A DNA stretch of 64,000 nt, from the NCBI RefSeq assembly GCF_029266855.1, contig NZ_JAQSWB010000005.1, forward strand, positions 124,001 through 188,000, given 5' to 3'. This DNA is from Fluviicola sp. GTDB lineage: Bacteria; Bacteroidota; Bacteroidia; Flavobacteriales_D; Crocinitomicaceae. Shown piece after piece: positions 42,795 to 50,072 of the stretch (within the stretch, counting starts at the first letter, position 1; the number at the start of each line of letters is the position of its first letter). The translations under genes were made by a program, and so were the position numbers. The notes under the pieces were generated by a model. The model did not search any database, was not told the DNA's origin, and saw only the letters and a program-made list of their open reading frames with translations.

Positions 42795-44069
42795 TTATTT
42801 CGCCGCGGAACTATTCATTCCGAAAGTATATACATTATAAGGAAGAATAAATCGTGCTATCCGCTGTCCCAAAAAACTGCTAACCAAAACAGGAAGAAAA
42901 AGTACGTAACCGTTCGGAACCAGGTTACACACCAAAACCAAGGCGGTAAAAGGGGCAGAAATAGCTGAAGAAAGCGTTGCGGCAATCCCTGCCAACGCAA
43001 AATTCAGCGGAATGAGTTCGATATGAAATACCTGGTTGCAGATCAAGGCAAAGAATAAGCCAAGTACTGCACCAACAACAATGCTCGGAGCGAATACTCC
43101 CCCATCCCCTCCAGCTCCTAAAGTTAGCGCGGCAACCAACGGTTTGATCACGATCAATAAGCCAAGAATTAAAAGGGAAACGGGTTCTTTATCCAATACC
43201 TGTTGAATCAGCTCGATCAATCCGTGGTAACTGTCCCCATAAAGAAAGCGTAAAAACAAAATAGCAGTTCCAACCAGCAACGCACCCAGGTTCACACGCA
43301 GAAAATTATTCGGGATCCTGGCAAAAAAGTCTTTGATCCGGATCACCAACACAGTGAAATACACTGAAAGCAGTGCTCCGAATAAACTTAGGATCATAAA
43401 AAACGGCAAAGCTTTCCAGGTCCAATCCTGAACTTCAAACGGCAATAAAGGCTTGCTGTCTACCACCAGTATTAAGATCCAGCTTACTAAAGCAGCTGCA
43501 ATACAAGCGATCAAAAGGGACTTGTTTATTTTACGTGCAATTACTTCCAAAGCAAAAAACAAACCCACAAGCGGACTCCCGAATAAAACTCCCACACCGG
43601 CAACAACTCCAGCACTCACCAATTCGCGTTTGTACATCTTGGCTGAAAAATCGCGCTTGTACGCTTCATTACCAACCGTAGCCGTCGCAACAACAGTAGA
43701 AACTTCAATTCCTGTCGAACCGCCGCTCACAACCGTTAAAAACCCGTTGAGCAAATGAGAGGGAACCTTGAATAAGGGCAAATGATCTTTTCGCTGGTCC
43801 AGGGTTTTATAAATCTCTGTAATTCCTTTGTTTTTCCGATTCTGAAAAAGGTATTTGCGTAAAAAATAGATGGTGGTAATTCCACAACTGGGTAAAATAA
43901 GGAACCACATCACATTCTGACTACCTGCCTGTTTAAATAATTGGTGCTGAACCAACTCTGTCAGAAGTTTCAAAACGTAAGCCAAAATACAACAAACCAA
44001 AGCAGTTAACATCGAGACTACCACCAGTTTGATATCGTTATACCAAATTATCTTTTTCCGTTCCGTCAT
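42795..44069 (-). CDS. ClC-family chloride channel/antiporter
   Basis: 424 residues from the ATG at 44069. A longer in-frame start at 44147 would put the intergenic CGCAGA repeat inside the protein, so it is rejected. About 10-11 hydrophobic helices. Recognisable ClC landmarks: SHLLNGFLTVVSGGSTGIEV, corresponding to the GREGP region with the gating Glu kept (TGIEVST), and GAGGDGGVFAPSIVVGAVLG, a strong match to the GGxFxP motif. The GSGIP-like position is divergent (NKGITEIYK). Inner membrane. The retained Glu allows H+/Cl- exchange, but transport mode cannot be decided from sequence. Confidence 0.9.
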   Translation of the reverse strand: MTERKKIIWYNDIKLVVVSMLTALVCCILAYVLKLLTELVQHQLFKQAGSQNVMWFLILPSCGITTIYFLRKYLFQNRKNKGITEIYKTLDQRKDHLPLFKVPSHLLNGFLTVVSGGSTGIEVSTVVATATVGNEAYKRDFSAKMYKRELVSAGVVAGVGVLFGSPLVGLFFALEVIARKINKSLLIACIAAALVSWILILVVDSKPLLPFEVQDWTWKALPFFMILSLFGALLSVYFTVLVIRIKDFFARIPNNFLRVNLGALLVGTAILFLRFLYGDSYHGLIELIQQVLDKEPVSLLILGLLIVIKPLVAALTLGAGGDGGVFAPSIVVGAVLGLFFALICNQVFHIELIPLNFALAGIAATLSSAISAPFTALVLVCNLVPNGYVLFLPVLVSSFLGQRIARFILPYNVYTFGMNSSAAK

Positions 44070-44090
44070 GCCCGTAAACTTAATTGAAAA

Positions 44091-44123
44091 CTCCCGCAGA
44101 TTTCGCAGAAGACGCAGATTTTT
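44091..44123. repeat. left inverted-repeat arm of the GxxExxY unit
   Basis: CTCCCGCAGATTTCGCAGAA then GACGCAGATTTTT. It pairs with the reverse complement of 44631-44663 at 29 of 33 positions. Internally it holds three spaced CGCAGA words (at about 44096, 44105 and 44113), so the arm is itself a short repeat array. Confidence 0.85.
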
Positions 44124-44218
44124 ATTTTCAAAAACGAGCAACACCAAGTCTTCTTACAATATAAGATAAGTAAAAAACACTTAATAATCAACATATTAGT
44201 TAGTTGCATTTTGAAAAT
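44124..44218. repeat. internal inverted repeat in the leader of the GxxExxY gene
   Basis: ATTTTCAAAAACGAGCAAC (44124-44142) and GTTGCATTTTGAAAAT (44203-44218) are inverted relative to each other (outer 10 bp exact, then GCAAC/GTTGC). The sequence between is A/T-rich. It could form a long-range stem upstream of the start codon. Confidence 0.5.
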
Positions 44219-44238
44219 CTTCATTCTAAATTTAGATT

Positions 44239-44616
44239 ATGACTGAAAATGAAATAAGCTACGAAATTCGAAAAGCAATCTATGAGGTTTATAATGAAAC
44301 CGGACCCGGATTATTAGAATCTATGTACGAATATGCGCTAAAGTATGAACTTGAATCTGCCGGATTGAATGTAAAATCGCAAGTTGCTCTACCGGCAAAA
44401 TATAAAGGCCGCACTCTCCCCGCAAATTATCGAATTGATTTGCTTGTAGAAGACAAGGTCCTTATTGAGTTGAAATCCGTCGATGAACTGAATTCAACTC
44501 ACCATAAACAAGTGATCACATACCTGAAGCTTTCGAATTTAAAATTGGGAATTCTGGTTAATTTCAATACCGACTACTTAAACAGTAATATTATTAGAAA
44601 AGTCAATAAGCTATAG
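44239..44616 (+). CDS. GxxExxY family protein (predicted PD-(D/E)XK fold)
   Basis: 125 residues. The name-giving motif is GLLESMY (G-x-x-E-x-x-Y) within NETGPGLLESMYEYAL. Downstream lie a conserved YRIDLLVEDKVLIELKSV strand-turn-strand with the Asp...Glu-x-Lys arrangement of PD-(D/E)XK enzymes (D73/E81xK83 by eye), HHKQVITYLKLS and a closing LGILVNFN. Length is normal. The fold is nuclease-like and acidic/Lys residues are kept, but biochemical activity is not established for the family as far as I know. The gene sits alone inside 33-bp inverted repeats, between a leftward ClC gene and a leftward ankyrin gene. Confidence 0.92.
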   Translation: MTENEISYEIRKAIYEVYNETGPGLLESMYEYALKYELESAGLNVKSQVALPAKYKGRTLPANYRIDLLVEDKVLIELKSVDELNSTHHKQVITYLKLSNLKLGILVNFNTDYLNSNIIRKVNKL

Positions 44617-44630
44617 CATTGCAAGTCTCC

Positions 44631-44663
44631 AAAGATCTGCGCCTTCTGCGTAATCCGCGGGAG
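44631..44663. repeat. right inverted-repeat arm of the GxxExxY unit
   Basis: AAAGATCTGCGCCTTCTGCG then TAATCCGCGGGAG, starting 15 bases after the stop codon. It is the inverted partner of 44091-44123. Together with the gene it defines a 573-bp unit. Confidence 0.85.
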
Positions 44664-44754
44664 ATAATATCCAAGATCATCACGTCTCCCAGCTAAACAC
44701 CAACAAACCATGGATCAATAGTAAAGCTTGAGTCTACGCTCCTCCGAAGGAAAT

Positions 44755-45510
44755 TCACTTTAACACTTCCACCATCTTAGCGTCCTTATTCTTTTTAGCA
44801 ATATTCAAAGGACTTAAACCAAACGTAATATCATCTCCACAATCAAATGTTTCAGGTGTATTCTTATCAGCTCCTCTTTTCAAAAGATATTGTGCGAGTT
44901 GAACATCTCTTTGCTTTACTGCCAGGATCAATGCATTTTCACCTTCACAATTCATAGCATCGATTTCCTCGGGGCTCAAAACCAACAGATCCAGAACTTC
45001 ATAATCTGCCCTTGAAACTGCTTCATGAAGCACCCATAGCTTTCCGCTCAAATCTCCTATTTCCTGATTTGCCCCCTGTTCCAAAAGAAAACGAGCGCAC
45101 GCATAGTGCTGATAAAATCCGGCTGATCTGAAAGATCCGATCTCACGAAAGGATGCTTCATGTTCAACCAAATAAGCCAGAATCTCACAGGCTCCATATT
45201 CTACAGCGACCAAAACACTTGAATAAGATGAACTGTTGATATTTGCTCCATGCTCGATTAACGCAATAGCTATGTTGAAATTATTTTGCCAGATTGCTGC
45301 TTGTAAAGGCGCTATTTTCCCGGCAGGTTCACTATTTCCGGGAAACTCCTTGGATTCCAGCATCTCAATTACCAAGGTTTCATTATCTGAAAAAATGGCT
45401 TCGTAGAACTTAGAAACAGTTTCTTCGGATTGCGCCCAGGAATAAAGACACGGCAAGCAAACCAATAAGGTCAATACTCCCAAACGAATTCCTTTGATTT
45501 GACTATTCAT
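44755..45510 (-). CDS. exported ankyrin-repeat protein
   Basis: 251 residues with an N-terminal signal peptide or anchor (GVLTLLVCLPCLYSWAQ). The rest is about five to six ankyrin repeats: KIAPLQAAIWQNNFNIAIAL, IEHGANINSSSYSSVLVAVE, YHACARFLLEQGANQEIGD-like units, GENALILAVKQRDVQLAQYL and FGLSPLNIAKKNKDAKMVEV. Ankyrin arrays mediate protein binding; an exported one in a Gram-negative cell would act in the periplasm. No partner is evident. It lies 92 bases downstream of the delta-60-repeat gene on the same strand. Confidence 0.85.
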   Translation of the reverse strand: MNSQIKGIRLGVLTLLVCLPCLYSWAQSEETVSKFYEAIFSDNETLVIEMLESKEFPGNSEPAGKIAPLQAAIWQNNFNIAIALIEHGANINSSSYSSVLVAVEYGACEILAYLVEHEASFREIGSFRSAGFYQHYACARFLLEQGANQEIGDLSGKLWVLHEAVSRADYEVLDLLVLSPEEIDAMNCEGENALILAVKQRDVQLAQYLLKRGADKNTPETFDCGDDITFGLSPLNIAKKNKDAKMVEVLK

Positions 45511-49931: not shown

Positions 49932-50033
49932 CTCCCGCAGATAGCGCTGATTTCGCAGATTAATGAGACCATGTAATCACATAGTGCTTAACACTTCAAA
50001 AAACCTGAAAGACTTCCGTGTTCATCTGTGGGA
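49932..50033. repeat. gene-less relative of the GxxExxY inverted-repeat unit
   Basis: The left end CTCCCGCAGATAGCGCTGAT, then TTCGCAGATTA, matches the 44091 arm at its first 11 bases and again in the TTCGCAGA word. The right end TTCCGTGTTCATCTGTGGGA (50014-50033) is the inverted counterpart of CTCCCGCAGAT with one G/A change. The ~50 bases between contain no frame. Confidence 0.6.
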
Positions 50034-50072
50034 AAATAATAAATCGTATTTTTACTACTAAACTTCGCTGCC

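Follow-up and report, generated by a model that had tools for sequence, protein, structure and literature searches.

GxxExxY nuclease-fold genes between word-phased inverted repeats: a candidate REP/RAYT-like mobile unit in Fluviicola

The described systems closest in organisation to the locus studied here are REP/RAYT and the REPINs. In the accessible portions of two papers on them, a small gene lies between two inverted repeats that recur elsewhere without the gene, repeat and protein co-vary, the abundance of the repeat goes with the presence of the gene, gene-less inverted doublets occur, and a single chromosomal site can be retained for long (PMC2817692; PMC3116915). GxxExxY genes resemble these systems in those respects, with one exception in the co-variation (the second letter of the repeat word, within the genus). 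In the same portions RAYT (TnpA-REP) is a tyrosine transposase related to IS200/IS605 and the REP is a GT(A/G)G-headed imperfect palindrome (PMC2817692; PMC3116915), whereas the GxxExxY protein is predicted to be a PD-(D/E)XK nuclease and its repeats, hereafter called arms, are arrays of 8-10-nt words. Unlike REP/RAYT, GxxExxY copy numbers look lower, arms in the genome studied here are mostly solo, and the genes are spread over several phyla and archaea. By analogy, the GxxExxY unit is REP/RAYT-like in its apparent organisation and not a member of that family, because enzyme and repeat type differ.

Three further systems invite comparison. Insertion sequences and MITEs also have terminal inverted repeats around one gene and gene-less derivatives, but the GxxExxY unit has no known transposase family and no consistent target duplication was found for 90 units. 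The Cas4/RecB/lambda-exonuclease branch shares the fold and the D, ExK, QxxxY pattern, and Cas4 profiles match weakly; in contrast to that branch, GxxExxY is a stand-alone protein of 125 residues, the single gene in its unit and flanked at both ends by inverted repeats of its own. The 23S rRNA intervening sequence is likewise a small ORF-bearing unit that has been called selfish, but in the available part of its description it has a four-helix-bundle protein, a location in 23S rRNA and excision by RNase III (PMC4990558). If anything, it is kin to the TIGR02436 class described below and not to the GxxExxY unit.

No description of GxxExxY mobile units or of the arm words was found in the literature searched, most subscription journals being outside its coverage. 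Two papers mention GxxExxY, and the passages concerned do not mention repeats, the rest of these papers not being available to us (PMC8934634, PMC12085832). In the literature searched, this enzyme type had thus not been tied to inverted-repeat units with a cognate gene. GxxExxY matches were found in 122 of 247 sampled genomes of the phylum Bacteroidota, to which the genome studied here belongs. It is a large family for which we found no described role, and an element-encoded nuclease with cognate ends would give it a testable one.

The unit at 44091-44663 and its predicted nuclease

The window analysed is a stretch of 64,000 nucleotides from a Fluviicola sp. contig (NZ_JAQSWB010000005.1, positions 124,001 to 188,000). 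An earlier note had proposed, from its letters alone, a candidate mobile unit in which one complete GxxExxY gene of predicted PD-(D/E)XK fold is enclosed by arms made of CGCAGA-type words and agreeing at 29 of 33 positions. An inverted-repeat search recovered these arms, with the same 29/33 agreement, as the longest inverted repeat in 43500-45500 (44091-44123 and 44631-44663; 33 nt long with 88% complementarity, separated by 507 nt). The words proved to be phased: both arms start with CTCC, followed by CGCNGA words at 9 nt intervals. The left arm (44091-44123, + strand) reads CTCC and then three phased CGCAGA words (CGCAGATTT CGCAGAAGA CGCAGA) and recurs in the genome, and the right arm (44631-44663) is its inverted copy (CTCCCGCGGATTACGCAGAAGGCGCAGAT on the - strand). 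Between them are a leader from the left arm to the start codon (44124-44238, + strand), the complete GxxExxY gene (44239-44616, + strand; 125 aa), with no second gene in the unit, and a spacer from the stop codon to the right arm (44617-44630). A further inverted repeat that had been reported within the leader (44124-44142/44203-44218) does pair when the leader is folded in silico, yet its stability does not exceed chance expectation (z -1.34), being equalled by 23 of 200 shuffles. Folded as single-stranded DNA, the whole unit has a z of -4.1, and none of 100 shuffles was equally stable. The sole match in an Rfam search of 43900-44900, up to E 1, was a snoRNA at E 0.8, far under its gathering score; a known RNA in the unit was rejected for want of any match near the gathering score.

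The unit is flanked by a ClC-channel gene (start codon 22 nt from the left arm) and an ankyrin-like gene. Since the left arm starts 22 nt before the clc start codon on the upstream side (window 44069-44123), the unit sits where the clc promoter should lie. In-frame translation through the left arm adds an N-terminal extension to clc that is probably spurious (ORF 42795-44147). The protein of the unit matched the defence gene RTasPDDEXK weakly (E 1.9e-4), and the neighbours, which read as a ClC channel (clc), an ankyrin-like protein and metG, do not look like defence genes.

In profile searches the protein scored above cut-off for two families only, GxxExxY (TIGR04256; 141.7 bits, cut-off 35) and PDDEXK_3 (PF13366; 141.3 bits, cut-off 22). 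A structure model from the single sequence was poor (pLDDT 51.8), and a model based on an alignment of 58 sequences (pLDDT 96.2) was used instead; with the PDDEXK_3 profile, it bears out the fold that had been predicted. On fold and residues the protein belongs to the PD-(D/E)XK superfamily, D67, E77 and K79 being invariant in alignments of 11 and of 58 sequences. E27 and Q91 are invariant in both as well, and Y95 is invariant or nearly so. The invariance of GPGLLES, which includes E27, is partly built into the 58-sequence alignment by the pattern used to collect relatives. D, ExK and QxxxY form the pattern of the RecB/Cas4/lambda-exonuclease branch.

Foldseek found no chain of the PDB at E 0.001 or below, and its best chains were 4ic1 (SSO0001, which we take to be a Cas4; E 1.5e-3) and lambda exonuclease. 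VIA gave a Z of 9.7 to 4ic1 (99 residues, 3.6 A) and of 8.4 to 3ijm, with only three chains at Z >= 8; the remaining listed entries (Z <= 7.3), Holliday-junction resolvases at 5.5-6.9 among them, were non-discriminating. The top structural chains were nucleases or restriction-like folds. A sequence search of solved structures with the 58-row profile gave no match, Pfam Cas_Cas4 reached 12.8 bits, under its cut-off of 22.7, and the PADLOC Cas4 match had an E of 0.02. In the accessible part of one report, a gene that one pipeline called GxxExxY seemed to be identified as cas4 by another (PMC8934634). The protein is thus confidently modelled as a PD-(D/E)XK fold nearest to Cas4 and lambda exonuclease, and its nuclease activity is inferred. 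The gene is under purifying selection, with dN/dS of 0.03-0.12 in 9 of 10 computable pairs; the tenth pair, with very few differences, gave 1.0, and for 2 of 12 pairs the ratio could not be computed.

Two other occurrences of the protein were noted. In an algal virus a GxxExxY protein is listed among replication and repair genes, in a passage that does not mention repeats, the only part of that paper available to us (PMC12085832). On the Bacteroides finegoldii plasmid NZ_OY725952.1 (L285), a GxxExxY gene stands in a row of genes between radA and the gene of an FAD-dependent protein, and is perhaps a domesticated form.

Inverted repeats and their words at GxxExxY and TIGR02436 genes

To score the arms of each gene, we took the 300 nt on either side of it and looked for the best ungapped inverted repeat shared by these two flanks, with a threshold of 16. 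Of the 14 genomes of the genus, 13 had TIGR04256 matches; in the window genome 8 copies are intact and 3 are broken or partial. Two of 63 genus loci were lost (L154 and L159, no tblastn hit), and 59 of the remaining 61 had both flanks of at least 200 nt and were used. Inverted repeats at or above the threshold flanked 39 of these 59 GxxExxY genes, compared with 2 of 151 other ORFs of the same loci (Fisher 4e-25). The same was found in other genomes, where 50 of 77 GxxExxY genes, drawn from the best 80 of 557 relatives and having flanks of at least 150 nt, carried such repeats, compared with 2 of 134 control ORFs (Fisher 4e-26). The taxa named for these best 80 include Bacteroidota, Cyanobacteria, Planctomycetota, Chloroflexota, Methanosarcinales and more, with many metagenome bins. 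They are not a random sample, having been chosen for the strength of their match to the window's own branch, and the flanks of the control ORFs are likely richer in coding DNA than those of GxxExxY genes. Arms could not be detected on about a third of the genes, 20 of 59 in the genus and 27 of 77 in the other genomes (again of the best 80 of 557). The proposal of a mobile unit would have been undermined had GxxExxY genes elsewhere mostly lacked flanking repeats, and in these two samples they do not. Two cyanobacterial units (L198 and L222; L239 is less alike) have right-flank sequence in common (agtataagttaccgaaa) and may therefore lie at one conserved site.

The arms are tandem CRCNRA words. 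Of 206 spacings between words, 77, 65 and 42 were 8, 9 and 10 nt (184 together), and shuffled arms had almost none. The word types vary among units (CGCAGAT, CACAGAG, CGCAAAG, CACGAAT and others), while the left and right arms within one unit agree, up to 51 of 51 positions in L168. Several such dialects coexist in one genome of the genus. For the dialect tests, 80 of 90 arm pairs, those with at least 2 words, were used, 78 of them in a protein tree and 65 in a Mantel test. On the 78-protein tree, letter 7 of the word (G or T, rarely A) required 6 changes, compared with a minimum of 22 in 500 shuffles; letter 5 required 11 against a shuffle minimum of 17, and letter 2 required 16 against 19. 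Within the genus, letter 7 changed 3 times (shuffle minimum 5) and letter 5 changed 4 times (minimum 5). Letter 2 within the genus was not beyond chance, with 7 changes and shuffles going down to 6. The similarity of arms increased with protein identity (Mantel r 0.40, p 0.0005, 65 units). On the comparisons made, the arm dialect is shown to follow the clade of the GxxExxY protein, apparently with the sole exception of letter 2 within the genus. Common descent of whole units would also yield such a link, but unconstrained non-coding arms should have lost it at these distances.

Concerted evolution of the two arms was considered as well. Similarity within units exceeded that between orthologs in 12 of 16 pairs, but nothing is concluded from this, as the anchor points of several arms did not correspond (L078, L119). 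Five units of one GxxExxY branch (L082, L140, L146, L149 and L156) have an extra hairpin-like motif just inside the arms (GGCGCCTACCGGTCGCC type).

A second family has comparable arms. Genes for TIGR02436 four-helix-bundle proteins occur in several copies per genome in the genus, and 22 of 30 loci (L255-L284) had inverted repeats at or above 16. These 30 are the loci returned, not all matches, and the ORF was short or wrong in L262, L276 and L282, of which L262 and L282 are among the 22. The 22 arms examined consist mostly of AT-rich words with a period of 7 (and 8), such as AATTACG and AAGACTTA, and contain no CRCNRA word. We assume that S23p and TIGR02436 are one family. The Coxiella 23S rRNA intervening sequence has an S23p-type ORF, which in the portion available of the work on it is preceded by tandem 7-nt words (GACAGAT) (PMC4990558); these resemble the 7-8-nt words at the TIGR02436 genes. 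The comparison favours word-phased arms as a general design, with CRCNRA words going with GxxExxY. That four-helix-bundle genes have parallel arms points to a general class of word-phased inverted-repeat units that has been overlooked, and this may bear on the origin of the 23S rRNA intervening sequence.

Unit ends, turnover at fixed sites and dispersed arms

Pairs of genus units were compared after setting aside 32 as lying at the same site, because their homology continued for more than 150 nt beyond an arm or because a separate hit of 80 nt or longer lay outside. In the 182 pairs at different sites, the single best hit of 200 nt or longer was measured for each pair. Homology reached at most 21 nt past the left and at most 1 nt past the right outer arm end of the first-named unit, and in most pairs it stopped inside the unit. 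Eight pairs were homologous over their full length, with ends within 7 nt of both arm ends; examples are L082-L137 (547 nt, 82%, +1/0) and L125-L149, both in one genome (556 nt, 75%, +5/-3). Because pairs with longer homology were set aside beforehand, this test speaks for the stretch up to 150 nt past the arms.

At fixed sites, compared with one genome per species, the units differ among relatives. At the L127 site, where 8 of 14 genomes were compared and element types were assigned by eye, G012 has a full unit, G006 an internally deleted unit that keeps the last codons, and G011 a gene-less arm pair with the dialect of the G012 unit. G005, whose flanks match those of G012 at 95% identity, carries a gene-less arm pair of another dialect. 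G001 shows an arm-like remnant, and G000, G002 and G013 have no unit and share other intergenic sequence. The clc-metG site, where the window unit lies, was compared in 6 genomes: the units of G013 and G012 are in the opposite orientation to the window unit, G002 has an internally deleted and G001 a gene-less unit, and G005 is empty. Orthologous loci therefore do not always contain the unit, 3 of 8 genomes at the L127 site and G005 at clc-metG being without it, which, with the association of repeats and the ending of homology at the arms, supports the candidate mobile unit of the earlier note.

That note had also proposed a search for empty sites and target duplications. Sites without a unit exist but are not base-exact, since genomes lacking the unit have different intergenic sequence at the L127 site, and the ends of 90 units showed no consistent direct repeat. 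Repeats of 4 or 5 nt were as frequent as in permutations; 6-nt repeats numbered 5 (2.2 expected) and 7-nt repeats 4 (0.5 expected), with no single offset prominent and with unit ends that are located only approximately.

Among same-site comparisons resting on both flanks, 9 of 31 (4 sites) were in opposite and 22 in the same orientation, and those with one flank only were divided equally (8 and 8 of 16). At clc-metG, inversion as one event was rejected: the arms of the window unit and of L070/L073 differ in dialect, so a separate insertion is as likely. In L140/L146 the interior is reversed while the arms remain with the flanks. This unit is 87% identical compared with 91-94% for the adjoining flanks, and its gene has a dS of 0.6 compared with 0.09 and 0.014 at two other sites common to these two species. 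Replacement by a related unit is thus as likely as a flip, because the unit is more diverged than its flanks and than the genes of other shared sites. At the same site G011 has a broken unit of another clade. A phage or plasmid vehicle was rejected, tblastn at 1e-5 matching 0 of 50,697 phage records and 7 of 72,556 plasmid records.

Arms also occur away from the genes. In the window genome (4.3 Mb), the three-word pattern CGCAGAnnnCGCAGAnnnCGCAGA has 30 matches, some overlapping, with up to 3 mismatches, and the reversed pattern has none. One of these copies lies in the window at 49932-49961 (+ strand; two-word pattern, 0 mismatches) with no GxxExxY gene beside it. A possible inverted partner at 50014-50035 (CCCACAGATGAACACGGAA on the - strand) was seen by eye and is weak, its automatic score (locus L032) of 9 equalling the null maximum. 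The arms of this genome are mostly solo. An inverted partner within 300 nt was found for 5 of 26 places, compared with 62 of 780 random places (8%), where 26 of 30 were used as L039, L043 and L046 overlap others and L042 was also omitted. Under stricter scoring (partner of at least 14) only 1 of 30 arms had a partner, and on these two tests many gene-less paired copies in the window genome are not claimed.

Across the phylum, the exact three-word pattern occurred 460 times in the 122 genomes with GxxExxY (reversed control 42) and 126 times in the 125 genomes without it (reversed control 31). At least 5 copies were present in 20 of 122 genomes with GxxExxY and in 2 of 125 without (p 2.7e-5, uncorrected for kinship), compared with 2 and 1 for the reversed control. 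"With GxxExxY" here means a match with E up to 0.001, and 120 of the 122 are above the curated cut-off. Pattern and protein counts are taken to rest on the same 247 genomes, going by the handles listed, which in the protein count leave out 105 genomes that lack a match. Two arm-rich genomes, G171 (34 exact patterns) and G196 (11), have no TIGR04256 match.

Readings of the units

As shown by comparison, arms and gene form one sharp-ended unit at many unrelated sites, which at fixed sites is present, absent, inverted, internally deleted or gene-less. Mobility of GxxExxY units is well supported by these comparisons, which are of sequence alone, as no movement was observed directly. Our preferred reading, to which we give a probability of roughly 0.6, is that the stretch 44091-44663 represents a single copy of a REP/RAYT-like mobile unit that is dispersed in the chromosome and whose nuclease acts on its own arms. 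The nuclease's part in movement, including any binding or cutting of the arms, is inferred in the absence of data on contact between nuclease and arm. The GxxExxY protein, as a minimal Cas4/RecB/lambda-exonuclease-like nuclease, would recognise its own arms, possibly as single-stranded hairpins at a fork, and then cut or resect them; host replication and annealing would then copy, invert or delete the unit. Such a route would leave no target duplication and would make neighbouring intergenic DNA replaceable. We count against the mobile-unit reading that no consistent target duplication was found, that empty sites are not base-exact and that most arms of the window genome are solo. The same holds for the third of genes without detectable arms, the off-tree behaviour of letter 2 within the genus, the arm-rich G171 and G196 without GxxExxY, the 22 of 31 comparisons with same site and same orientation, and the lack of a PDB chain at a Foldseek E of 0.001.

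The units could instead be passive cassettes bounded by repeats, a possibility that survives but that we consider unlikely. The arms would then be ordinary substrates of recombination, with hairpins, template switching and homologous exchange between dispersed copies flipping, deleting or swapping the contents, and the nuclease would have an unrelated host role, for example in repair or defence. The missing target duplication fits this, as do the reversed interior of L140/L146 with its arms staying in place and the purifying selection at long-held sites, and inverted repeats alone can give inversion and internal deletion. However, passive cassettes leave unexplained why one protein family goes with one arm grammar across phyla and archaea, why dialect goes with protein clade inside a single genus too, and why homology runs up to the arm ends between units with unrelated flanks.

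We think it improbable that the unit is not mobile and that the arms are binding sites through which a nuclease-fold DNA-binding regulator controls its own gene, with solo arms as its regulatory targets. A regulator would account for a dialect that follows the protein, its multimeric binding would fit phased words, and the mostly solo dispersed arms of the window genome and the left arm 22 nt upstream of the clc start codon are in its favour. It is at odds with arms that are inverted on both sides and mark the ends of homology, with the turnover of units at fixed sites and with the invariance of the nuclease active-site residues. That a common dispersed repeat landed on both sides of the gene by chance or convergence is hardly credible, since the same words are indeed present elsewhere in the genome but flanking repeats were found at 39/59 vs 2/151 and at 50/77 (best 80 of 557 relatives) vs 2/134 ORFs, and CRCNRA words were absent from the 22 four-helix-bundle arms examined in the same genus.

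Beyond the preferred mobile-unit reading of this locus, we advance only tentatively, as something short of an even bet, that GxxExxY units are an unrecognised selfish DNA superfamily crossing phyla, in which units are copied, inverted and reduced not by a transposase but by a Cas4/lambda-exonuclease-like nuclease acting on the arms. It would be one of at least two classes, the other being the TIGR02436 units, which encode four-helix-bundle proteins between arms of 7-8-nt words and would include the 23S rRNA intervening sequence as a special case. An element-encoded nuclease with cognate ends would explain dispersed repeats of the CGCAGA, CACAGAG and CGCAAAG types, and the REP/RAYT way of life would then have arisen with an unrelated enzyme.

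Arms were also seen in larger arrangements. In G171 many pattern matches lie about 131 nt apart. Positions 900-1560 of L006 (G000 C1, about 547100-547750) hold tandem modules about 110 nt apart, of two alternating types with CGCAGA arms, several of which are followed by AACCACAAAGAACACGAAG words; this array resembles the composite arrays known for REPs. Positions 4100-5120 of L079 form a nested composite in which several arms of two dialects surround one GxxExxY gene, and about 20 nt of outside sequence (ATGGATGCCCTTTGTGTTTTT) is duplicated next to two of the arms.
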